Shown piece after piece: positions 1 to 20,062 of a stretch of DNA of 64,000 bases. The stretch is taken from assembly GCF_006385705.1 (NCBI RefSeq), contig NZ_VFRQ01000014.1, positions 1-64,000 of the forward strand, written 5' to 3'. The notes beneath the pieces are model-generated. The model ran no database searches. It worked only from the letters and a program-made list of their open reading frames with translations, and was not told where the DNA came from. The translations under genes were made by a program, and so were the position numbers. This DNA comes from Pontibacter mangrovi (GTDB lineage Bacteria > Bacteroidota > Bacteroidia > Cytophagales > Hymenobacteraceae). Within the stretch, counting starts at the first letter, position 1; each line of letters begins with the position of its first letter.

Positions 1-105
1 CTTTTGCCATTGTTAAATCCGGTATTCCGTATCAGGCTGAGTTCTCTAAAACTTCTCCTCAATTCGCTTGACTTTTAACAGAGTTCATGTTGGCACAATT
101 GTTTT

Positions 106-672
106 TTAAGCGACAGGAGCAAGTATCTTTTCTGGCACCACCCATTTCCCCTTCACTTTTGTTATTCTTAGCGTCCCACCATCAGACGCCATGTCTCCAG
201 ACCACTTTCTGTAGTAAAGTATATCTTCGGTAAATTTTGAATTAAAGAGAACTCTCGATAGCGTGAACCATTTATACATACACTCTTCACCTTCTTGCAG
301 GTCCAAGCGGATGGGCTGCTGTAGCTTCTCTTCTGCCGCAGGGGTAAATCTATACTTGGGGAAATCTTCTAACCTTGTAATATAGTGCGGTCGCTCTTCT
401 AACGCTACTGTGACGAACTCTTCTAAAGGCTCTTCCTCCTTTCCGCTGTTATCTATAGCCTCCAAATTCTTATAAAGAAAGAAGACAGCCTGCTCAGCAT
501 TTTGCTCCCTTAACTTTTTATAGTAGAATGTAGTGTCCGCAATTTCATTAAACACATCATTGTAAGCCCTTAATTCTTCCTGATAATACTTATCAGATTC
601 TACAAGAGATTCTTCTTCTGTACATCCAACCAAAGTTAGCATGACTAAAACTGCTGCAATTATCTGTTTCAT
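106..672 (-). CDS. Cassette 1: putative lipoprotein of unknown function
   Basis: A 188-residue protein with a lipoprotein signal: a hydrophobic stretch from residue 4 to 15, then a lipobox ending in Cys17 (LTLVGC). It is therefore probably anchored in a membrane on the outside of the cytoplasm. The mature part is charged, mostly helical in appearance at the N-terminal half, and I do not recognise a family. The start codon lies 16 bp from the TGCCAAC core and the stop 10 bp from GTTGGCA, so the gene fills one cassette. No promoter of its own is evident, as expected for a cassette gene read from the head of an array. It is the last cassette visible in the window. Confidence 0.75.
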   Translation of the reverse strand: MKQIIAAVLVMLTLVGCTEEESLVESDKYYQEELRAYNDVFNEIADTTFYYKKLREQNAEQAVFFLYKNLEAIDNSGKEEEPLEEFVTVALEERPHYITRLEDFPKYRFTPAAEEKLQQPIRLDLQEGEECMYKWFTLSRVLFNSKFTEDILYYRKWSGDMASDGGTLRITKVKGKWVVPEKILAPVA

Positions 673-688
673 TCATCTATTACATTTT

Positions 689-742
689 TGCCAACGTACT
701 TGGCCATAAGGCGGCGTAGCTGGCTTATGGGTGTGGTTACCT
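689..742 (-). repeat. attC-like site A (54 bp)
   Basis: Outer cores are TGCCAAC (689-695) and GTTACCT (736-742). The inner stem is CCATAAG (704-710) with CTTATGG (724-730), with a 13-nt loop containing GGCGTAGCT. It is closely related to sites B and G, sharing AACGTACT and the same central nine bases. It separates cassettes 1 and 2. Confidence 0.85.
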
Positions 743-752
743 TTTAGTGCTT

Positions 753-1559
753 TTACCTGTGGGTGAATCTTAGTAATTCTTTCACATACATGTCTCCAAA
801 GCTATCTTTGGTCATTGCCATAAAGCCTTCGGTGTGGTTGCCGCTATGTTTCAAAGTTTCTCTGTTACTCCTTTGCTGAGCAATTTTCTCGCTTTCTTCT
901 ACTGTCGTAAACTCGTCTTTCTCACCTGACACAAGGAGCATGTCGCACTTTATTCTTTTCAATTGCGAGGTATAGTTGCCAGCGACTTTTGGCAAGACAA
1001 TATCTCTATCCTTTAACACCTTTATCTTTGCCACATAGGCAGGAGGGTCATAAACATACCCTTCTCCTATCAGGAAGTCCGCTTTCTCATGTTGCAGGGC
1101 AAGGGTAGCAACGATAGTGCCCATAGAGAATGCCAGCACACCAGTTCTGTTTCCCTTGATGTTTTTTTTCGTCCACCCCAACACAGACTGAAGGTCAGTG
1201 GCAAACTCATTGTAGTAGAGGTTAAGCGGGTTAATTTCAAAATCTGAGCTTTTCCCAAAGCCCCTATAGTCGTAGGCAATCACAGTGAAACCATTATCTG
1301 ATAGAGCTTTGATATGGTAGAGCCAATAGGACATGTTGCCGCTGTCAGCATAAGTCAGCACCAAGGTTGTCTTTTTGTCTTTCCCCGCAGCTGGCTTAAT
1401 TACCCAAGTATTGATTAAATACCCATCCGCAGTTTTTATCACCTGCTGTTCATAGTTCATCCCTAAGCTGTCTGGCGTGGCTACATATTCCCTAACTGGT
1501 TTTATTGCATAACAGTCGAGGGAAAACAGCAAGACAAAAACTAAAAGTATGTTTTTCAT
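753..1559 (-). CDS. Cassette 2: secreted alpha/beta-hydrolase
   Basis: A 268-residue protein with a signal peptide (residues 1-18) and an alpha/beta-hydrolase fold. The nucleophile elbow AFSMGT puts the catalytic Ser at 145, the acid is probably Asp215 (SGEKDE) and the His is His242 (SGNH). YDYRGFGKS near residue 97-104 is the usual loop after strand 4 of serine hydrolases in the BAAT/dienelactone-hydrolase-like group. The substrate cannot be read from sequence; an esterase or peptidase acting in the periplasm is likely. Its cassette boundaries match over nine bases (736-744 and 1575-1583). The elbow begins with Ala instead of the first Gly of GxSxG, which is tolerated in this superfamily. 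Confidence 0.85.
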   Translation of the reverse strand: MKNILLVFVLLFSLDCYAIKPVREYVATPDSLGMNYEQQVIKTADGYLINTWVIKPAAGKDKKTTLVLTYADSGNMSYWLYHIKALSDNGFTVIAYDYRGFGKSSDFEINPLNLYYNEFATDLQSVLGWTKKNIKGNRTGVLAFSMGTIVATLALQHEKADFLIGEGYVYDPPAYVAKIKVLKDRDIVLPKVAGNYTSQLKRIKCDMLLVSGEKDEFTTVEESEKIAQQRSNRETLKHSGNHTEGFMAMTKDSFGDMYVKELLRFTHR

Positions 1560-1576
1560 TTTATGGTTGGTATTAA

Positions 1577-1630
1577 AGGTAACGTACTGGCCTAAACTGT
1601 GGCGTAGCTAAAGTTTAGGTGTTGTTCTGT
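1577..1630 (-). repeat. attC-like site B (54 bp)
   Basis: Cores are AGGTAAC (1577-1583) and GTTCTGT (1624-1630). The inner stem CCTAAACT (1591-1598) pairs perfectly with AGTTTAGG (1612-1619) around the 13-nt loop GTGGCGTAGCTAA. The stop codon of cassette 3 lies inside this site. The loop and stem are nearly identical to site G 2.8 kb away although the cores differ. Confidence 0.87.
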
Positions 1631-2072
1631 GAAGTTTTGCTTCATTTACTAACTCAGTTAATTTCTCTAATTCTGTTTTATCTGCTATAGGCCAGTTCTG
1701 CGAAACATATTGATTATCAGCAAATTTTTTAATCGCACGATAAACTGGCGAAATCAGAGATTCGAAACTTCCGTTTGTTTTAAATACTATTTCCCTGTCA
1801 GAGTTTTCTGACTTCGCAAAAGATATGTTCAATGTGTACTCGCCACTAAATTTTTCAAATTCAAAATAGTAACCTTCAGGCTCTAAATGCCACCACACTT
1901 CTGCTTTTATTCCTTGGATTACACTTCTCAAAGATGAAATCAATTGGTCTATCGGATTTGCGGGAACGCCAGAAGCATTAAATTCTAACCTGAAACTATT
2001 GAAAGCTATTTTAACAGGTAGCCAACCATGTTCTGGTATACCAAATTCTATACTTAACTTTTCATTTTTCAT
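1608..2072 (-). CDS. Cassette 3: unknown 154-residue cytoplasmic protein
   Basis: No signal peptide, membrane segment or family motif is recognised. The sequence has amphipathic beta-rich stretches and several Trp residues (EVWWHLEPEGYYFEFEKF around 59-76), followed by a polar tail, which gives the look of a small soluble alpha/beta protein. The start lies 11 bp from the CACAGAAC core. The stop codon is inside site B, so the last residues (about TTPKL) are encoded by the recombination site itself; exchanging the downstream cassette would leave this tail unchanged because the site travels with the gene. Confidence 0.7.
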   Translation of the reverse strand: MKNEKLSIEFGIPEHGWLPVKIAFNSFRLEFNASGVPANPIDQLISSLRSVIQGIKAEVWWHLEPEGYYFEFEKFSGEYTLNISFAKSENSDREIVFKTNGSFESLISPVYRAIKKFADNQYVSQNWPIADKTELEKLTELVNEAKLHRTTPKL

Positions 2073-2084
2073 ACTTCAAATTAC

Positions 2085-2214
2085 ACAGAACGGTTTGCAT
2101 ATGGCTTGTGGCGGTTTCGAAGCACTTTCTAGTCCACCGAAACCAAAGCTTGCTACGGAGCGGAAACCTTGCTGGTAGCCGTCAACCCGCCATAAGCTAT
2201 ATGCTTTGTTGTGG
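2085..2214 (-). repeat. attC-like site C (130 bp, long terminal loop)
   Basis: Cores are ACAGAAC (2085-2091) and GTTGTGG (2208-2214). An 18-bp arm at 2097-2114 pairs with 2187-2204 at 16 of 18 positions. The 72-nt region between holds a further nested stem, GGTTTCG (2113-2119) with CGAAACC (2138-2144). This is the longest site and matches the way attC sites vary mainly in their terminal loop. Confidence 0.85.
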
Positions 2215-2239
2215 GTAGTGTTTTTTATTTTTTCTTCTG

Positions 2240-2677
2240 TCATAAATAGTCGAAATACCGAATTTGCCAAGTAGGTATATCTTCGAATTGTCCGTCATAT
2301 TCCTTGTCAAGATCGTCATAGCTTACATAAATGAAGGTGTGTCGTTCGAGAATCTCCTTGATAGTCGAAATAGTTTCGGCTGAATACTCTTCTTCAAAGT
2401 TAATTGTCGCGAGTCCACCAAAGTTGCTGATTCGAACTGAGTAACCGAGATTAGGCCTAGGTTTCAGAACTAATTCATGAGGAATTCGAATGTCACAATA
2501 GAAACTTGCATCTTGAACTTGGTTGTCGATTTTAAAAGTCAGTCCAAAGTACTGTTCGAGTTCATTTGTCATTTTAGCAACTCGGTTCACTAAGGTTTCA
2601 TAGTCGAATTTTGACGGTGTTTCAAATCGATCTTGCTCGTCAAATTCTAGCAATATGTTTCTTGTCTCGGTTTTCAT
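2240..2677 (-). CDS. Cassette 4: unknown 145-residue acidic protein
   Basis: A small soluble protein rich in Asp, Glu and aromatic residues, with no signal peptide and no membrane segment. The C-terminal third (YVSYDDLDKEYDG, then IPTWQIRYFDYL) is strongly acidic and aromatic. This composition and size resemble immunity-type proteins often found in Bacteroidota accessory DNA, but that is only an impression; no family is recognised. The cassette core is the longest matched pair of the array, TACCCACAAC (2685-2694) with GTTGTGGGTA (2208-2217), and the match extends to 13 of 14 bases. Confidence 0.72.
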   Translation of the reverse strand: MKTETRNILLEFDEQDRFETPSKFDYETLVNRVAKMTNELEQYFGLTFKIDNQVQDASFYCDIRIPHELVLKPRPNLGYSVRISNFGGLATINFEEEYSAETISTIKEILERHTFIYVSYDDLDKEYDGQFEDIPTWQIRYFDYL

Positions 2678-2687
2678 TTTACATTAC

Positions 2688-2737
2688 CCACAACGGTTTT
2701 GCTATGGTGCGTTTATGCACTATAGGTAGTGTTGGGC
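2688..2737 (-). repeat. attC-like site D (50 bp)
   Basis: Cores are CCACAAC (2688-2694) and GTTGGGC (2731-2737). The inner stem CTATGGTGC (2702-2710) pairs with GCACTATAG (2717-2725) with one mismatch and a 6-nt loop. GTTGGGC is the only core here that fully fits the classical integron consensus GTTRRRY. Confidence 0.85.
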
Positions 2738-2747
2738 GCTGATTTGT

Positions 2748-3449
2748 TTAGTATACTTTGGTCGTATCATTGCCAATGAGGAAAATTCCTTGCCTATTGT
2801 ATGCCCATTTCCTTTCTTGTGAGTCAGTCACTACTGTTGTTCTTGAAGGTGGGGTGCTGCTGTTTTCTTTGCCTAGGCTCACAGAATCTATAGGTGTCCA
2901 GCTCAGCGTTGGGTTAACATCTTTTAGTTGAAACACTTTTCCTTCATAATCAACAATGCTTAGTGGCTGTTTTGGCTGTGAGTAAAAGGTCTTAGGGAAA
3001 ACGTTCCTGGTGTCTAATTCAAATTTAGTCCAGCTTTTCCCTAAATTACTTGAGAGGTAAAGAAAGCAAAAGTCAGCTTCATGAATGCCCATCCAGCTCT
3101 TTAGTCCCCATAATTGCCCTGTGTTGTCAAGAGTTAGTTCGTTTATACGTCCAGGAGATTCTATTTCTTTCCATGTCTTTCCAGCATCTGTTGTCAATAC
3201 CAATCCATTGTACTGTGTTGCGGCAATCAGTGTGTCCTCAGCTATTGGAAGCAAATCGTAAGTCGAAGAAGGATACATCTTTTTACCCAACTCCCATATT
3301 CGGTCCTGCTCTTCGATTCTTCTTTGTTTCCTTTCTTCACTGCCATACTCAATAAGCTTAGAACTAATCTTATCATCATCGTTTTTCTTTTCGCTACTAC
3401 AGCTCAAGAAAAGCAAAGAGGCGCAAACAACTAAATAACCTACTTTCAT
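2748..3449 (-). CDS. Cassette 5: lipoprotein with Asp-box (BNR/sialidase-type) repeats
   Basis: Starting at the ATG at 3449 gives a 233-residue lipoprotein with signal MKVGYLVVCASLLFLSC and lipobox Cys. The upstream in-frame ATG at 3467 would lie inside the cassette core, so the downstream one is preferred; it sits 11 bp from the core like the other cassettes. Two Asp-box motifs are visible (TTDAGKTW and SSNLGKSW), the turns typical of beta-propeller blades in sialidases and Ycf48-like proteins. The chain is too short for a full six-bladed propeller. Enzymatic activity cannot be claimed; a membrane-anchored binding protein is plausible. Confidence 0.75.
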   Translation of the reverse strand: MKVGYLVVCASLLFLSCSSEKKNDDDKISSKLIEYGSEERKQRRIEEQDRIWELGKKMYPSSTYDLLPIAEDTLIAATQYNGLVLTTDAGKTWKEIESPGRINELTLDNTGQLWGLKSWMGIHEADFCFLYLSSNLGKSWTKFELDTRNVFPKTFYSQPKQPLSIVDYEGKVFQLKDVNPTLSWTPIDSVSLGKENSSTPPSRTTVVTDSQERKWAYNRQGIFLIGNDTTKVY

Positions 3450-3461
3450 AATTGAATTTAC

Positions 3462-3525
3462 GCCCAACGGCCGCGTGCTTAAGATGCCGAAGCGCTAGCA
3501 AGGTAACTTAAGCATTGTGTTGTAC
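3462..3525 (-). repeat. attC-like site E (64 bp)
   Basis: Cores are GCCCAAC (3462-3468) and GTTGTAC (3519-3525). The inner stem TGCTTAAG (3476-3483) pairs perfectly with CTTAAGCA (3507-3514). The loop contains GCTAGCAAGGT, similar to the loop of site F (GCGAGCAAGGT). Confidence 0.85.
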
Positions 3526-3534
3526 TTCGTAGTT

Positions 3535-3924
3535 TTAATCTATTCCTTCCGTTTTACTGCCCCAGAACTTGTCCAGCTCTCGGCAGAACTCATAAGACTT
3601 CGGCTTTAGTCTGGATGTAAATCTGGTCAAAGTTATTTTCCTGTCTCCACTTCTGTTCGTAATATTTTCCAAGAAGAAGAATTTGATGGCATAATTTACA
3701 TCGTCATTCCCTTCTGTTATCATTTGTTCAGCAAAATTCACGAGTTTTTCAATTTCTTCATCTGTGCCTTTTGCTATAACATCAAGGGCAAAATGGGAAA
3801 ATTCAGCCATGTCCATTCCAAAAGGATTTTCCCTTTTCCAGAATTTAACATGTTCTTCATACTGGCTTTTGAAAGCAGGGAAGAGAGTCAGCATTGAAGT
3901 TATACTTGTTTTCTCATCTACCAT
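3535..3924 (-). CDS. Cassette 6: unknown 129-residue helical protein
   Basis: A soluble, mostly helical protein without signal peptide or membrane segment. Notable pieces are an aromatic N-terminal half (HVKFWKRENPFGMDMAEF), an acidic helix with EEIEKLVNFAEQM, and a basic segment around DRKITLTRFTSRLKPKSYEF. It resembles small helical proteins of unknown function found near polymorphic toxin loci in Bacteroidota, but no named family is recognised. The stop lies 6 bp from the GTTGTACTTC core and the start 19 bp from GAAGTACAAC; this ten-base match at both ends is exact. Confidence 0.72.
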   Translation of the reverse strand: MVDEKTSITSMLTLFPAFKSQYEEHVKFWKRENPFGMDMAEFSHFALDVIAKGTDEEIEKLVNFAEQMITEGNDDVNYAIKFFFLENITNRSGDRKITLTRFTSRLKPKSYEFCRELDKFWGSKTEGID

Positions 3925-3946
3925 ACTTTCTATTAATTTCTATGAA

Positions 3947-4014
3947 GTACAACGGGCCGCGTACATAAAGCGAGCAAGGTGTAACCGCAGATTGGTTTAT
4001 GTGCAGGGTTATGC
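3947..4014 (-). repeat. attC-like site F (68 bp)
   Basis: Cores are GTACAAC (3947-3953) and GTTATGC (4008-4014). The inner stem GTACATAAA (3961-3969) pairs with TTTATGTGC (3996-4004) with one G-T pair. The loop resembles that of site E. Confidence 0.85.
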
Positions 4015-4018
4015 TAAG

Positions 4019-4330
4019 TTATTCTTTTACAATCTTGAATGACTCTGCTTCAATCGATATAGTATCACCACTCTGCATTTCTACTTCAAGTCTGTTCCCC
4101 TTCTTTACAACTTCATTTATTGAGCAACTTCTTCCCCAAGGGCTTTTCATTGGGCATGTGAAGGAACTTACTTGTTCAGCTATAATAGAAATAGCTTCTG
4201 TTTCTGGAAAGTAAAGTTCTGCCGTTGTTATTCTTATTACTACAGATTCTTTTTTCCTGTCAATCAGAATGTCTTTTACTATTGAGTCATGCAGTTGCTC
4301 CTGTTCAATAATCAATTCTGATTCTTCCAT
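4019..4330 (-). CDS. Cassette 7: unknown 103-residue protein
   Basis: A small beta-rich acidic protein. Regular alternation of hydrophobic and charged residues (SVVIRITTAELYF, RLEVEMQSGDTISIEAESFKIV) suggests a compact beta-barrel or sandwich. There are two Cys residues (TCPMKSPWGRSC) separated by ten residues in a loop with a conserved-looking PWGR. No signal peptide and no recognised family. The stop lies one base from the GTTATGCTAA core (4008-4017) and the start 11 bp from TTAGCATAAC, making this the tightest gene-to-site fit of the array. Confidence 0.72.
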   Translation of the reverse strand: MEESELIIEQEQLHDSIVKDILIDRKKESVVIRITTAELYFPETEAISIIAEQVSSFTCPMKSPWGRSCSINEVVKKGNRLEVEMQSGDTISIEAESFKIVKE

Positions 4331-4344
4331 TTATTAAAAATTTA

Positions 4345-4398
4345 GCATAACGTACTTGGCTAAACTGTGGCGTAGCTAAAGTTTAGGTGTGGTTAGTC
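4345..4398 (-). repeat. attC-like site G (54 bp)
   Basis: Cores are GCATAAC (4345-4351) and GTTAGTC (4392-4398). The stem CTAAACT (4360-4366) pairs perfectly with AGTTTAG (4380-4386), loop GTGGCGTAGCTAA. It is nearly identical to site B and close to site A. The stop codon of cassette 8 is inside its core. Confidence 0.87.
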
Positions 4399-5085
4399 TG
4401 ATTTCTTTTTTATGATTTCTTGCCACTTTTTAACAGTACTTGTATACTTGTTAAAGTCAGTCCATTCGTTCCCAGAGCTGTAGTCATAGCTTTGGTAGAA
4501 AGCAGAATCATTTAGTATCCTAATTTCTATTTCTTTATTATGGATCGGTGAATATCGTCCTGAAATAAAACCTTCAATATTCTTTCCATTGACTTTGAAT
4601 TTAAGCTTTATGCCTGTATCGTAAGGGTACTCAATGCGGGCACAGTAACAATGGAAAGTTTCCTTATCGCCAGGTTCTAGTTTAGAGAGTCTAAATGATT
4701 CATTATTCCTAGCTTCAACTTCAAGTTCTGTAACTGGGAGCTCTGAGTAATTTGAAAAAGCAAGTTCTACCTTGTTGGAATGTACTCTGAATGAATAGAA
4801 TATTATCAAATGAAAGATAATGGTAAAGCCAAAGAGTTTAGCTGAGAACGCCCAAACAGAATTCTTCTTTATGCGCTTGACTCTTGCTAACAAAATTATT
4901 GCCCAAACTAGCAGGCTCGGCGCAACAAAAAATACAAGGGAATAAATGTATAGGTAGCCGACCCAAACCCACAAAGCAGAGATTGTTCCTTCATACCAAA
5001 ATGTCTCAACTAAATAAGCAACAAGAAATGCCACGCTAATCAAGACATTCAAAGAAGCGATCGCTATAGATGCATTTCTATTCAT
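4393..5085 (-). CDS. Cassette 8: membrane protein of unknown function
   Basis: A 230-residue protein with three apparent membrane segments in the first half (about 8-28, 38-67 as one long or two short, and 84-101), then a roughly 125-residue soluble domain rich in beta strands and aromatic residues. The soluble part (VELAFSNYSELPVTELEVEARN and onward) has the look of an Ig-like or lipocalin-like domain outside the membrane. The family is not recognised. It is the first cassette after the recombinase, hence the most recently inserted if the array grows at its head as integrons do. The stop codon TAA (4393-4395) overlaps the GTTAGTC core. Confidence 0.75.
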   Translation of the reverse strand: MNRNASIAIASLNVLISVAFLVAYLVETFWYEGTISALWVWVGYLYIYSLVFFVAPSLLVWAIILLARVKRIKKNSVWAFSAKLFGFTIIFHLIIFYSFRVHSNKVELAFSNYSELPVTELEVEARNNESFRLSKLEPGDKETFHCYCARIEYPYDTGIKLKFKVNGKNIEGFISGRYSPIHNKEIEIRILNDSAFYQSYDYSSGNEWTDFNKYTSTVKKWQEIIKKKSD

Positions 5086-5097
5086 AATTTGAATTAA

Positions 5098-5136
5098 GAC
5101 TAACTATAGTGTATAAGGAGTTATTCCGGTTATTGG
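5098..5136 (-). other. Candidate attI-like integration site at the array head
   Basis: The recombinase-proximal boundary of cassette 8 is GACTAAC (5098-5104), but it is followed by T rather than the G found after AAC at all seven complete sites, and no attC-like hairpin follows. Instead there are two direct copies of GTTATT (5120-5125 and 5129-5134) spaced nine bases apart, each with a short flanking CC or GG. Classical attI sites carry direct repeats for integrase binding next to the core. The assignment is inference from position. Confidence 0.4.
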
Positions 5137-5249
5137 CCCTTTAGCTGGAGTGTTCGAAGCATTTTCTTTACTACATCCAGGCATGTTTTGGCAGGGTGTC
5201 GGTTTCGGTTTCATCTTCTATACATTTCAAAGCTAAATATAGAACATTC

Positions 5250-6693
5250 CTATAAATTATCAAGCGGACTGACGATACTTTCCAGTCCGTGGCTGGTGAT
5301 GTGGGTGTAAATCTCGGTGGTCTTGCTGCTCTTGTGCCCCAGCAGCGACTGAATGTAGCGCAGGTTTGTGCCCTGCTCCAGCAAGTGCGTGGCAAAGGAG
5401 TGGCGCAGCGAGTGGGGCGTCACCTTCTTCTGCAGCCCCGCCTTTTGCACACAGCCCTTAAATACGTTGCGGATGCTGTCGGTGGTATACTGCCCGCCGT
5501 ACTGCCCTTCAAACAGCCACACTTTCGGCCTGTACTCCCTGTAGTAGGCCCTCAGGCTCTCGAGCAGTTTCTGCGAGAGCAGCGTGGTGCGGTCCTTCTT
5601 GCCCTTGCCCCCGCGTATGAGCAGCAGGTTTCTCTCTGACTGCACGTCCGTGATCTTTAGGTTGATGACCTCCCCAATCCGCAGCCCACCGGCGTAGAGC
5701 AGCTGCAGCAGGCAGCGGTGCTTTAGGTTGGCGGTAGCGGAGAGAATCCGCTGCACTTCCTGCTTGCTGAGCACGGTGGGCAGCCTGTCGGCCTTCTCGG
5801 GCCGCTCCACCTGGCTCAGGTCCATGGTGTGCCGGCCCAGCGTAAAATTTCACGGCATTAATGCTCTGGTTTACGAAAGAGTAGGAGTACTGCCGGCTCT
5901 GCACCATCTGCCGGTGGTAAGCGTTGATTTCATTCACAGAAAAAGTGTTGATTGTCTCCAGTCCCTGCACGCTGTGTCCGTTAAGAAAGCGCAGCAGAAG
6001 CGAGTGGTAAGTGCGGATCGTGTTTACGGAGTAGTTAAGCAGGTACAGCTTCTCCAGGTAGGGCAGCGGGCAGGTGATATAGCCGGCCGCCTTCCTATAG
6101 GTCTGCTCCCAGAGCCTGCGCAGGATGGTCATGTCATTTACCTTCATTGTGCCCGCGAGCCACACCTGCGCCGTGCCCTGCACATCGTCTAGCAGCTGGT
6201 GCAGGTTCGTAGCATCGGTGCTTAGGGCAAAGCACCTCGGCTCCTGCAGCCACTGGCAACAGGAGCTGCATCGCAGTGTTTTATAAATCAACTCATTATA
6301 AGGGAATGAAATTTGGATGAGTGATTTGCCCTCATGCTCCAGCGGCTGCAGGCGGATGATGGGGAGCTCAGGCAGCTTGGCCAGCGGATCAGACTGCAGG
6401 CTGCCGGATGTGACCACTGCGCCCATTGCTGGGCGAATTCGTTTGGGCCTGTTTAGATAACGCGTGTCCACCATCGCCACCCCCTGAAAGTGCCTGTGCA
6501 GCAGCTCAATTGCCTCCGGCGTTTTGTGCGTCACATAACACTTATACGTCTTGCTATACTTAACCATTTCGGCGCCTTTCAATAGTTTTGTAATGCGGTG
6601 ATCCGGCTTGTACCATAGGCGGATGAACTGCTTCCCCTCATGCTCGAGCGAGTTGAGGTACAGAACGGGAGCGGTATGGTAAGTCTGCTGCAT
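5250..6693 (-). pseudogene. Tyrosine recombinase of the cassette array, frameshifted
   Basis: Two overlapping frames make one protein of about 480 residues. The 5' frame (start 6693) has two copies of a 55-65-residue module beginning LEHEGK (residues 16 and 118) and a SAM-like core-binding domain (about 208-285). It then loses frame at the CTGGGCCGG run near 5834-5841; removing one base there joins it to the 3' frame. That frame, from the ATG at 5825, carries the whole catalytic domain: Arg49, Lys74, His138, Arg141, His164 and Tyr173 (numbering from that ATG). It ends SPLDNL, a tail resembling the SPLD ending of IntI proteins. The roughly 30-residue insert that distinguishes IntI between the Lys and HxxR motifs is absent. 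The gene points in the same direction as the cassettes, unlike most class 1 integrons. The frameshift could be real decay, a phase switch or a read error. Confidence 0.8.
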
Positions 6694-6725
6694 GGGGTCC
6701 GATGGTATTTTTGATCAAATGTAAA

Positions 6726-7118
6726 CCCCGCAGGCAACTCATCCCCCACCAGGGCTGCCACTTTGCTGTTGTGCTCGGAGAAGACCTCCACCAGCGTCCT
6801 GCCCTTCTCCTCTTTCCCCAGAAACTTGTTCTTGATGGCTTCCGCCGTCAGCGGCAGCCCTGCCTCCACTAGCTGGCGGTGTGCCTCGTACACCTTCGCC
6901 TGCAGGTTGTCCAGGTAAGTGTTCAAAGACTTGGCTGCTGCCTTCGTACCCTTTGCTAAACCCGCAGAGGATATCCACCTCTCTGGCTCAACAGACCGGC
7001 TTGTGGTTAATTCTGCGCGCTTGCCAGCCACCGTGACACGCAGGTAGACCGGCACGGGGCCTGTTTGGTAGTTCTTCGGTTTATTTAGGTAGAAGAGAAG
7101 ACTGAAATTGATGCTCAT
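6726..7118 (-). pseudogene. Truncated tyrosine integrase (Arm-DNA-binding N-terminus only)
   Basis: The first 131 codons match the N-terminal arm-binding domain of Bacteroidota mobile-element integrases: MSINFSLLFYLNKPK, then PVYLRVTVAGKRAELTT, a conserved RW (ERW), and NTYLDNLQAKVYEAHRQL. The start of the core-binding domain (LVEVFSEHNSKVAALVG) is present, then similarity stops abruptly at about 6726, just before the recombinase start region at 6693. The central and catalytic domains are missing. It lies 252 bp from the 3' end of tRNA-Ser, a position typical of integrases that use tRNA genes as attachment sites, so it is probably the relic of an older integrative element at this locus. Confidence 0.75.
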
Positions 7119-7312
7119 AACAGTGACTTAAAAAGTTAAATAAATGTAGCCTTGCAGTCAACCGCAGTCAATATACGCAACCTCATTACACATTGGTAAT
7201 CAATAAGTTAAACCTATATTCAGTGAGTCATTGGAGGCGTTTGAGGAACTCACCGGACAACTCACCTAAAATTCCTGAAAAGGTGTAAAATTTAAGAGCC
7301 TGGTAAAAACAA

Positions 7313-7345
7313 AAAAGCCTGCAAATTCTTCATTTGCAGGCTTTT
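7313..7345 (-). terminator. Terminator after tRNA-Ser
   Basis: AAAAGCCTGCAAAT (7313-7326) and ATTTGCAGGCTTTT (7332-7345) form a perfect 14-bp stem with a 5-nt loop and a T run on the minus strand, 24 bp past the tRNA 3' end. Confidence 0.8.
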
Positions 7346-7369
7346 AGCTGATTTTGGTATTCCTACCAG

Positions 7370-7457
7370 CAGAGAGCAAGGGATTCGAACCCTTGATACC
7401 CTTTTGGGGTATACACACTTTCCAGGCGTGCTCCTTCGACCACTCGGACAGCTCTCT
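7370..7457 (-). tRNA. tRNA-Ser(GGA)
   Basis: An 88-nt tRNA on the minus strand. The acceptor stem AGAGAGC (5') pairs with GCTCTCT (3'), discriminator G. The anticodon stem CACGC/GTGTG encloses loop CTGGAAA with anticodon GGA, reading UCC/UCU. A long variable arm (ATACCC...GGGTAT) is characteristic of tRNA-Ser and the T arm has GGTTCGAATCC. CCA is not encoded. The accessory island lies on its 3' side. Confidence 0.96.
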
Positions 7458-7519
7458 GAATAGAGATGCAAATATACGCCAAGAAAAAGCACATCTGCAA
7501 GTATAGTTCCTGTATAGTT

Positions 7520-8590
7520 TTACAAACTGATCTCGCCCCGCAGGTTCTGCTGCAGCAAACTCATCCGCTCCAGATGGCTAAGTTCCTGTTGCGCCAGCAC
7601 ATACATCAGTTTAGAGATAGCCGCTTCAGTTGTAATGTCAACTCCTCCAATAATGCCCATGTTCAGCAGGTGCTTGCTTGTTTCGTAGCGCCCCTGGTCC
7701 ACACGGCCCTCATCGCACTGCGACACATTCAGGATAAGTATGCCACGGCTTACGGCTTCCTGCAGCAGGTCCAGGAACCAGGGCACGGTAGGTGCGTTGC
7801 CCGAACCAAACGTTTCCAGCACCACCCCCTGCAGCCCGGAGGCCTGCAGTATACTTTGCACCACCTGCGGGGTGATGCCCGGAAATAGCCGGAGTATGAC
7901 CACATTATCATTTAAGGCATGATGCACTTTAAAAGGCTGCTGCGGGTGCTGCAGGATATGCTCGTAGCTGTACTCAATGTCGATACCGGTTTCTGCCAGC
8001 GGCGGGTAGTTATCGGATTTAAAGGCATCGAAGTGGCTGCTCTCTACTTTTTTGGAGCGGTTGCCGCGCAGCAGCAGGTTCCGGAAATAAATGCAGACTT
8101 CGGGCACCACGCTTCTCCCGTCCTTTTTAGTGGCAGCTATCTGCAGGGCCGTGATCAGGTTTTCGCGGGCATCGGTGCGGATGCGCCCGATAGGCACCTG
8201 CGCTCCGGTAAAAATGACGGGCTTCTGCAGGTTCTCCAGCAAATAACTTACAGCAGAGGCCGAATAGGCCATGGTATCGGTGCCATGCAGCACCACAAAG
8301 CCGTCATACAGCTCGTAGTTCTCCTCAATCAAACGGGCCAGCATCAGCCAGTCCTTCACCGATACGTTAGACGAGTCGATGGCGGGCTCTATACTTAGCA
8401 CCGTGAGCAGGTAATTGAACTGCCGCAGCTCCGGCACGTGCTCCGTGATCTGGGAGAAATTAAAGGGCACCAGGTGCTGCTCCTTCTCATCAAACACCAT
8501 CCCCACCGTGCCGCCGGTATAGATGATCAGGATAGAGGCCTCCGGGTGGAGCGGCGCGGCGGTGTCTATGTCTACTTTTACTACCTGCAT
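7520..8590 (-). CDS. ansA: Type I L-asparaginase
   Basis: A 356-residue cytoplasmic enzyme hydrolysing L-asparagine to aspartate and ammonia. The two threonine-containing signatures are present: YTGGT at residues 24-28 (nucleophile Thr25) and HGTDTM at 102-107. The absence of a signal peptide and the homology pattern (LENLQKPVIFTGAQVPIG, FGSGNAP) fit the AnsA type. One base separates its start from the stop of the upstream tatD-like gene, so the two are almost certainly cotranscribed. Confidence 0.93.
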   Translation of the reverse strand: MQVVKVDIDTAAPLHPEASILIIYTGGTVGMVFDEKEQHLVPFNFSQITEHVPELRQFNYLLTVLSIEPAIDSSNVSVKDWLMLARLIEENYELYDGFVVLHGTDTMAYSASAVSYLLENLQKPVIFTGAQVPIGRIRTDARENLITALQIAATKKDGRSVVPEVCIYFRNLLLRGNRSKKVESSHFDAFKSDNYPPLAETGIDIEYSYEHILQHPQQPFKVHHALNDNVVILRLFPGITPQVVQSILQASGLQGVVLETFGSGNAPTVPWFLDLLQEAVSRGILILNVSQCDEGRVDQGRYETSKHLLNMGIIGGVDITTEAAISKLMYVLAQQELSHLERMSLLQQNLRGEISL

Positions 8591-8591
8591 A

Positions 8592-9359
8592 CTATAGCTT
8601 GAAAAGGTTCAGGGCGTTAGCCGTGGTTTTCTCCGCCACCTCCTCTAGCGGCTTCTGCAACAGTTCGGCCACGCGCTGCGCGATCAGGGGCAGGTATACC
8701 GGCTCGTTTCGCTTGCCACGGTGCGGGGTTGGGGCCAGGTACGGGCAATCGGTTTCCAGCACCAGGTCCTCCAGTTGCACATGCGGCAGCACCTTATCCA
8801 GGCCGCCGTTCTTAAAAGTAGCCACCCCGCCGATTCCCATCAAGAAGCCCAGTTCCTTCACCTTCTCCGCCTCCTCCACGGTGCCGCTAAAGCAATGGAA
8901 AATGCCTTTCAGGCTGCCGTCCTGGGCAGCGGAAATGATCTCGTATGTTTCGTTGAACGAGTCGCGGGTGTGCAGCACGATGGGCAGTTTATACTTTTTG
9001 GTCAGCTCCACCTGCACCTTAAGGGCTTCCTGCTGCTGTGGCAGGAAGGTTTTGTCCCAGTACAGGTCGATGCCGCACTCGCCTACCGCGGCAAAAGGCC
9101 GCTTGCCCAGCCACTCCTCCACTAGGTATAGCTCCCGCTCAAAATCCTTGTCCACTGAGGTGGGGTGCAGGCCCATCATCGGGATGCATACACCTTTGTA
9201 CTTCTCCTCGGCTTCCAGCATGGGGTCGATGGAGGTATGGTCGATGTTAGGCATGTAGATCTTGCTCACTCCCTCCTGCCCCGACCGCTCCACAGCCCCG
9301 GCCCTGTTAGCATCAAACTTCTCGGAATAAATATGCGCGTGCGAATCAACTAAATTCAT
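8592..9359 (-). CDS. TatD-family metal-dependent hydrolase (DNase-like)
   Basis: With the ATG at 9359 the protein is 255 residues and begins MNLVDSHAHIY, the normal N-terminus of the family; the upstream ATG at 9380 adds seven atypical residues. Metal ligands are visible: HAH at residues 7-9, the conserved GECGIDLYWD, VLHTRDS, and ETDCPYLAP with the catalytic Asp. TatD/YcfH enzymes are 3'-5' DNases or related phosphodiesterases in the cytoplasm. It is first in an operon with the asparaginase gene. Confidence 0.92.
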   Translation of the reverse strand: MNLVDSHAHIYSEKFDANRAGAVERSGQEGVSKIYMPNIDHTSIDPMLEAEEKYKGVCIPMMGLHPTSVDKDFERELYLVEEWLGKRPFAAVGECGIDLYWDKTFLPQQQEALKVQVELTKKYKLPIVLHTRDSFNETYEIISAAQDGSLKGIFHCFSGTVEEAEKVKELGFLMGIGGVATFKNGGLDKVLPHVQLEDLVLETDCPYLAPTPHRGKRNEPVYLPLIAQRVAELLQKPLEEVAEKTTANALNLFKL

Positions 9360-19444: not shown

Positions 19445-19507
19445 GTTTTCTACCGGAATGGTGCAGGCTTTGGCAAGGCGTCAGTTGAAGCTTAAGGCTG
19501 CATTGGG

Positions 19508-20062
19508 TTATGGCATTTGATCATTATACTCTTTGTAGAGTTTTACTCCTTCAGGCTTTCCCTGCCAGACTTCTATCCTGTAGTAATCGTCACCTTCATC
19601 TTCGCTATCTACACTGTCTAAGTTTATCGAATATACTCGAACTCTGTAATTACCTGGTTTAACTATTTTCTCAAATTTAACGGCACCCGTAGGACAGTCT
19701 ATAATCTGAAGTACGCCTGACCTTACTTCAAGGTCTCCTTCAACTACATGATCATACTTAGCAAAGTCGTTAACATTTGGTGAGATGTTAAGAAATTCTA
19801 TTTCTCCTTCTACAGGTCCATAGCACTCGGTGCCTACACCCAATACTCCATCTTCAACAGCCAGCCTTCTGTTAGAGGCTGCATCAGTCCAAAAGTTTTC
19901 GCTATCTGTTGAGCCTGATGGATTCCTATCAATAATGTAAAACTGTCTATATGGAGTATAGAAATCGAGCTTGGTGATACCAAAATTATTATTCTGCTTC
20001 ATCCCTACAGAAGGTTTACATGAAATCAAAACCAGGCACAGCAGAACGTTTTTCAAATTCAT
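19508..20062 (-). CDS. Putative lipoprotein of unknown function
   Basis: From the ATG at 20062 the protein is 184 residues with a lipoprotein signal (MNLKNVLLCLVLISC, lipobox Cys15). The upstream in-frame ATG at 20080 adds MAVGGV, which weakens the signal. The mature domain is beta-rich with acidic stretches (NLDSVDSEDEGDDYYRIEVWQG), similar in style to small Bacteroidota proteins that resemble immunity or competence-associated beta proteins; no firm family. It follows mgtE by 18 bp. Confidence 0.72.
   Translation of the reverse strand: MNLKNVLLCLVLISCKPSVGMKQNNNFGITKLDFYTPYRQFYIIDRNPSGSTDSENFWTDAASNRRLAVEDGVLGVGTECYGPVEGEIEFLNISPNVNDFAKYDHVVEGDLEVRSGVLQIIDCPTGAVKFEKIVKPGNYRVRVYSINLDSVDSEDEGDDYYRIEVWQGKPEGVKLYKEYNDQMP

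Follow-up and report, generated by a model that had tools for sequence, protein, structure and literature searches.

The window analysed here comprises 64,000 bases of Pontibacter mangrovi (contig NZ_VFRQ01000014.1, bases 1–64000), and its left end carries a putative integron: an array of single-gene cassettes beside a tyrosine recombinase gene. Between positions 89 and 5104 lie eight open reading frames (ORFs) on the minus strand, each with GTT and four to seven specific bases at its start and the reverse complement (...AAC) at its end. Seven palindromic segments separate these units, and the array starts 146 bp past the recombinase. The features, all on the minus strand, are listed in the order in which they are read.

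5250–6693, minus strand: integrase-like tyrosine recombinase, about 480 residues, frameshifted (11-bp deletion near 5840)
5104–5249, minus strand: predicted attI, from the recombinase 3′ end to the insertion point ..CTATAG|TTAG (41 loci conserved to G|TT, then divergent)
4392–5104, minus strand: cassette 1, gene 4393–5085 (membrane protein, no family), end match 8 bp
4344–4399, minus strand: attC 1, covariance model R1, 50.3 bits
4008–4351, minus strand: cassette 2, gene 4019–4330, end match 10 bp
3946–4015, minus strand: attC 2, R1, 49.9 bits
3519–3953, minus strand: cassette 3, gene 3535–3924 (DUF7674), end match 10 bp
3461–3526, minus strand: attC 3, R1, 45.3 bits
2731–3468, minus strand: cassette 4, gene 2748–3467, end match 8 bp
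2687–2738, minus strand: attC 4, R1, 36.1 bits
2208–2694, minus strand: cassette 5, gene 2240–2677, end match 10 bp
2084–2215, minus strand: attC 5, long type with 116-nt spacer, of the length class of long sites elsewhere
1624–2091, minus strand: cassette 6, gene 1608–2072, end match 8 bp
1576–1631, minus strand: attC 6, R1, 46.7 bits
736–1583, minus strand: cassette 7, gene 753–1559 (alpha/beta hydrolase), end match 9 bp
688–743, minus strand: attC 7, R1, 50.4 bits
89–695, minus strand: cassette 8, gene 106–672, end match 7 bp

An earlier note, made from the letters of the window alone, had described eight genes with gene-specific matching ends and seven intervening attC-type sites, and both observations were confirmed. 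The two ends of one cassette are complementary over 7–10 bp, whereas all 56 wrong pairs reach 3–5 bp. Seven consecutive cassettes have matches of at least 8 bp; in 40 shuffles of 20 kb the longest runs were one to four. The covariance model recovers six of the seven sites with E-values of 1.8e-6 to 7.8e-10, these six having belonged to its training set, and the seventh (about 2084–2215) was read by eye. No attC was found for cassette 8 in the 88 bases remaining before the contig start. An Rfam search of window bases 1–9000 at the gathering thresholds gave no match. Elsewhere in the window, a lone weak attC-like match (25 bits) without cassette partner is located at 19447–19514 on the minus strand.

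The structure of the sites was analysed with sequences from relatives, because the seven window sites alone were aligned poorly by MAFFT. The resulting alignment contains 62 sites picked by their ends. The ends are thus not independent evidence in this alignment, while stem covariation and strand asymmetry are. RNAalifold revealed a stem with compensatory changes in seven of seven pairs. In the 9-bp inner stem, 175 changes are double-sided and one is one-sided. With the R box included, 188 cells changed on both sides, and the covariation of 0.527 drops to 0.10 or less when the columns are slid by one to three positions. G-U pairs are almost absent, indicating that the stem folds as DNA and not as RNA. 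Of 135 sites, 129 fold more stably as the bottom strand (mean −11.9 versus −9.0 kcal/mol). The R-box consensus resembles RYYYAAC/GTTRRRY, so that folded palindromes with such ends, which the functional definition of an integron demands of attC, are present.

To relate the sites to the recombinase, we surveyed 150 Hymenobacteraceae genomes, 64 of which have the N-terminal/core part of the recombinase at E ≤ 1e-10. Around 41 recombinase loci, the window included, the sequence covered amounted to 465 kb on the downstream and 235 kb on the upstream side. This yielded 273 sites: 267 downstream on the same strand, six downstream on the other strand and none upstream. In most Hymenobacteraceae loci showing a first cassette, it starts about 134–156 bp past the recombinase stop. 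When the 41 loci were aligned after the stop codon, conserved blocks ended with ..TATA..c..TAG|TT, and the sequences were unrelated from there. As judged from this alignment, the conserved stretch from the stop codon to TAG|TT is attI; it adjoins the recombinase gene and has G|TT as its insertion point, as attI does in the functional definition. Several contigs end less than 1 kb from a recombinase gene, on the side of the array, as would be the case if arrays interrupt assembly.

No sites occur in ten genomes belonging to two genera for which no recombinase was found, and 22 genomes of three other genera contain 14–71 sites each. The earlier note would have been contradicted by sites scattered irrespective of such recombinases, and this was not seen. 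Some of the 22 site-bearing genomes have no detected recombinase, however, and the 52 sites of the P. mangrovi genome itself (E ≤ 1) are clustered. Such groups are reminiscent of clusters of attC sites lacking an integron-integrase (CALIN), and one may ask whether the window array is itself a CALIN that a classical IntI mobilises in trans, with the neighbouring recombinase there by coincidence. These genomes commonly carry clusters without a recombinase and the local recombinase is broken, both of which would fit. Against this stand the strict adjacency, strand and spacing relative to the recombinase in dozens of loci. In addition, the IntI model gave no match at E ≤ 1e-60 in the P. mangrovi genome or the sampled family members; within the phylum, 70 of 247 genomes have a classical IntI scoring over the cut-off, with only one same-class genome among the matches listed. 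We consider a classical IntI acting in trans very unlikely.

Further observations concern attI and the recombinase loci. Three genomes seemed to have an empty attI but instead carry an IS110-family insertion at that site: in loci L051, L056 and L070, the same point (TAGT|G) is occupied by an element encoding an IS110-type transposase, and it seems that this element targets attI. In L041, L059, L066, L067 and L077, a common stretch (..GTGATTGGGATTATTTTCAGATT..) follows directly after attI, about 300 bp being alike in L066 and L077. The recombinase is also plasmid-borne, on Rufibacter tibetensis plasmid 1 (NZ_CP012644.1), where a cassette array follows it, and on a Pontibacter kalidii plasmid (NZ_CP111080.1).

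The matching of cassette ends extends beyond the window. Among 251 intervals delimited by profile-found sites, a minority of which had stood in the training set of the profile, 180 have ends matching over at least 8 bp, compared with 1.8% upon random re-pairing. Of 194 cassettes, 192 have their main ORF on the same strand as the array, with a median cover of 92%. Cassette contents are mostly unknown; single occurrences include HigA/HigB, MazF/PemK, MerTP, thioredoxin and Imm33, and a defence-system scan of 111 cassette proteins gave only weak single matches.

A cassette from a cluster on contig C30 of the P. mangrovi genome (L212) is 97% identical to an array cassette of another genus of the family (L054 in genome G054, apparently Rufibacter sp. 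SYSU D00344). The homology begins at G|TT and stops where the next attC ends, and the neighbours differ. Two arrays contain non-adjacent cassette copies with 100% identical interiors, and in one of these, L066, the identical stretch has exactly the same edges as the cassette. By sequence comparison, then, these are mobile single-gene cassettes. Both expectations that the earlier note had attached to mobility, matching end pairs in other strains and a gene order that is not constant, were thus borne out. These data also bear on whether the sites might be intergenic palindromes, such as repetitive extragenic palindromic elements or terminators, between ordinary immobile genes. The sites are indeed short palindromes after genes on one strand. 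Yet ordinary palindromes would leave the pairing of the ends and the presence of attI unaccounted for, as well as the cassettes common to different genera with edges at G|TT and a gene order that varies with the cassette edges, and we regard this explanation as hardly credible.

A frameshift divides the recombinase gene of the window into two ORFs (5250–5825 and 5509–6693). Its cause is not an additional T in a homopolymer, since an intact homologue of genome G058, which is 94% identical, shows that 11 bp are deleted. The tyrosine recombinase of 480 residues named in the earlier note does adjoin the array and lacks the IntI-specific insert, known as the patch, but it is a pseudogene. The array in the window is therefore probably idle, or frozen, unless another copy of the recombinase acts in trans. 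A second copy in the same genome (G000:C5:99589-100116) is truncated at its 5′ end, and the model found no attC in 40 kb of surrounding sequence (L191, L192). In the window, a fragment of an unrelated Arm-DNA-bind_5 integrase (6579–7118), outside the integron system, adjoins a tRNA-Ser (GGA) gene at 7369–7457 and is likely the remnant of an integrated element.

The read-through protein consists of two N-terminal beta-beta-alpha repeats, followed by core-binding and catalytic domains. The best single NCBIfam match of the catalytic part is XerA (NF040815), with 204.3 bits for the read-through protein, under the cut-off of 220. The integron-integrase model TIGR02249 scores 191.5 bits (cut-off 265), in two stretches between which profile positions 178–241 are skipped. 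In the AlphaFold model (mean predicted local distance difference test score 84), the best Foldseek matches in PDB are XerA (5hxy, 4a8e), an archaeal Xer and IntI4. Structure comparison with IntI4 (2a3v) leaves residues 208–247 without counterpart. These 40 residues include K209, Y210, W219, P232, H240 and H241, which are reported to touch the extrahelical bases G20″ and T12″ (PMC3053210). The N-terminal repeats gave no Foldseek match below E 0.02. Weak matches were obtained to the HARP domain of SMARCAL1 (4o66; probability 0.72, E 0.14) and to the N-terminal half (DRD) of XPB (2fz4; Z 6.2 over 56 residues). Both modules bind DNA in a structure-specific manner.

For phylogenetic analysis, we used 256 shared columns without the insert from 37 recombinases and 13 IntIs, with XerA and XerC/D outside. 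The 37 recombinases form one clade (SH-aLRT, the Shimodaira–Hasegawa-like approximate likelihood ratio test, 93), which is sister to the 13 IntIs (SH-aLRT 94) and not inside the IntI clade; XerC/D-like proteins of the P. mangrovi genome fall into a separate clade. The family is thus likely, though not proven, to be the sister group of IntI. The absence of the IntI-specific insert stated in the earlier note is seen in the profile gap and in the unmatched IntI4 residues. Its term ‘parallel cassette system’ is better replaced by ‘sister lineage of IntI’, since both the recombinase and attC seem to be relatives of their classical counterparts.

The resemblance of the catalytic domain to XerA, XerC and XerD might suggest Xer/dif-type modules instead, in which genes are flanked by XerCD sites as in the pdif modules of Acinetobacter. 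Such modules share a common short site, whereas the boundaries found here are gene-specific inverted pairs of 7–10 bp around G|TT with covarying hairpins and spacers of 36–120 nt. Conserved dif-like sites of 28 bp were not seen at the boundaries, and the separate clade of the XerC/D-like proteins also speaks against this origin, which we judge highly improbable.

The system is not restricted to one family. A profile of 26 homologues finds matches at E ≤ 1e-90 in 49 of 395 genomes of the class, a count of relatives of the recombinase and not of arrays. Named recombinase loci include those of Rufibacter, Sabulibacter, Adhaeribacter, Arcicella, Arundinibacter, Marinilabilia, Tenacibaculum and Fulvivirga. 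Outside Hymenobacteraceae, about 18 loci, among them those of Marinilabiliaceae, Tenacibaculum and Fulvivirga, have their first cassette 16–180 bp behind the recombinase, with ends that mostly match over 9–10 bp; many attC sites there are of the long type (about 115–120 nt). On these sequence data, the combination of recombinase, attI and attC recurs across Bacteroidota, and the recombinase clade spans Bacteroidia.

Taken together, the window and its relatives appear to contain an integron, with attI, attC sites, single-gene cassettes and an adjoining integrase that is sister to IntI and lacks its additional domain; we assign this a probability of about 0.93. Several points weigh against it. 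The recombinase of the window is a pseudogene and the other copy in the genome is truncated. Many clusters, also in the P. mangrovi genome, are without an adjoining recombinase. An end match of at least 8 bp is missing in 28% of the inter-site intervals, of which some probably hold an undetected long site and some have probably decayed. Finally, the position as sister of IntI depends on the SH-aLRT value of 94 in a quick tree with few outgroups on long branches.

In the mechanism that we propose, single-stranded attC, most likely the bottom strand, would fold into a hairpin. The recombinase would cleave at G|TT, excise cassettes as circles and insert them at attI behind its own gene. The point of insertion and the movement of cassettes can be read from the compared sequences, and the enzymatic steps are deduced from them. 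IntI contacts the extrahelical bases mostly within the insert that is missing here (PMC3053210), so the recombinase would have to read the hairpin in another way, and the N-terminal repeats are a candidate, if a weak one, for the hairpin reader.

Clinically important resistance genes, tet(X) among them, occur as cassettes of this kind. On Acinetobacter plasmids, tet(X3) follows 189 bp after ‘TnpF’, a truncated member of the recombinase family that is 53% identical over its length. The sequence between the two shows 80% identity across 50 nt with the attI-like stretch of a Cyclobacteriaceae metagenome-assembled genome, and a partial long attC follows tet(X3). In L231 (NZ_CP041297.1, 6052–8200), tet(X3) is accordingly found between the truncated recombinase with the attI-like site and the partial attC. 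The ends of tet(X3) on the plasmid have no match of at least 8 bp (GTTATGTGCC / GGCTACTAAC).

A complete tet(X) cassette was found in the Bacteroidia genome G595 (protein 86% identical; 10-bp ends, 10/10; 119-nt attC). It belongs to an array (L242, G595:C2:34000-53900) of ten consecutive cassettes, all with ends matching over 9–10 bp and mostly with long attC sites, which is not beside the recombinase copies found in G595. CatB, AadS, a small multidrug resistance (Qac-like) transporter, Erm(F) and a Tet(A)-family pump are also encoded there, AadS, Erm(F) and the pump having been scanned as truncated sequences. Homology of this tet(X) cassette to the tet(X3) plasmid starts exactly at G|TT, and tet(X2) on plasmids of Sphingobacterium faecium and Bacteroides fragilis matches it edge to edge (99.7–99.9%). 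blaOXA-347 on the Sphingobacterium plasmid has 10-bp cassette ends too; more distant tet(X)-like homologues (44–64% identity) showed no cassette ends. Mobile tet(X3) thus looks like a cassette that an ISCR2-type element has taken along, which would account for the so far unexplained ‘xerD’ beside it, and the integron provides a cassette origin for the Bacteroidota units with tet(X), aadS, catB, erm(F) and blaOXA-347.

A broader picture, to which we give somewhat less than even odds, would join these results: IntI and the recombinase family share an attC-recombining ancestor, the patch being one of two solutions and the HARP/XPB-DRD-like N-terminal repeats the other, and the Bacteroidota integron served as assembly platform of tet(X), erm(F), aadS, catB and blaOXA-347 before export by transposons.

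Current tools search for integrons by the patch, which is considered indispensable for integron recombination. A lineage that spans a class and does without the patch goes unnoticed by tools demanding it, and makes the requirements for recombining a folded attC directly testable. IntegronFinder 2.0 reported one complete integron in Bacteroidetes proper, that of Salinibacter (PMC9024848). Our literature search found no account of the recombinase–attI–attC system; preprints and most subscription papers were outside its scope.

Several known systems invite comparison. The ISCR2–xerD–tet(X3) unit (PMC8635130) shares with the family its ‘xerD/tpnF’, a truncated member, but has been presented only as an ISCR2 transposition unit. 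In Riemerella, aph(3′)-IVb flanked by 27 bp on its upstream and 140 bp on its downstream side integrates independently of homology; the authors note an attC-like fold and describe the mechanism as unknown (PMC13148043, 2026); unlike here, no recombinase, attI or array was identified in that study, and the Bacteroidota integron is a candidate explanation for this uptake. XerA is the best match of the catalytic part, but it scores under the cut-off and the tree places it outside the pair of recombinase family and IntI. Archaeal integrons (PMC9668308) likewise occur outside the classical hosts; their IntIs, however, were found with a patch-domain profile and keep the IntI-specific domain. The closest parallel is the sedentary chromosomal integron of the Vibrio cholerae type, with attI beside the integrase, attC hairpins with RYYYAAC/GTTRRRY-like ends, a more stable bottom strand, single-gene cassettes on one strand, toxin–antitoxin cassettes and integrase-less clusters. 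The Bacteroidota recombinase differs from that IntI in lacking the insert, in its N-terminal repeats and in its position outside the IntI clade; furthermore, its 3′ end faces attI and the cassettes are read in the direction of the recombinase.

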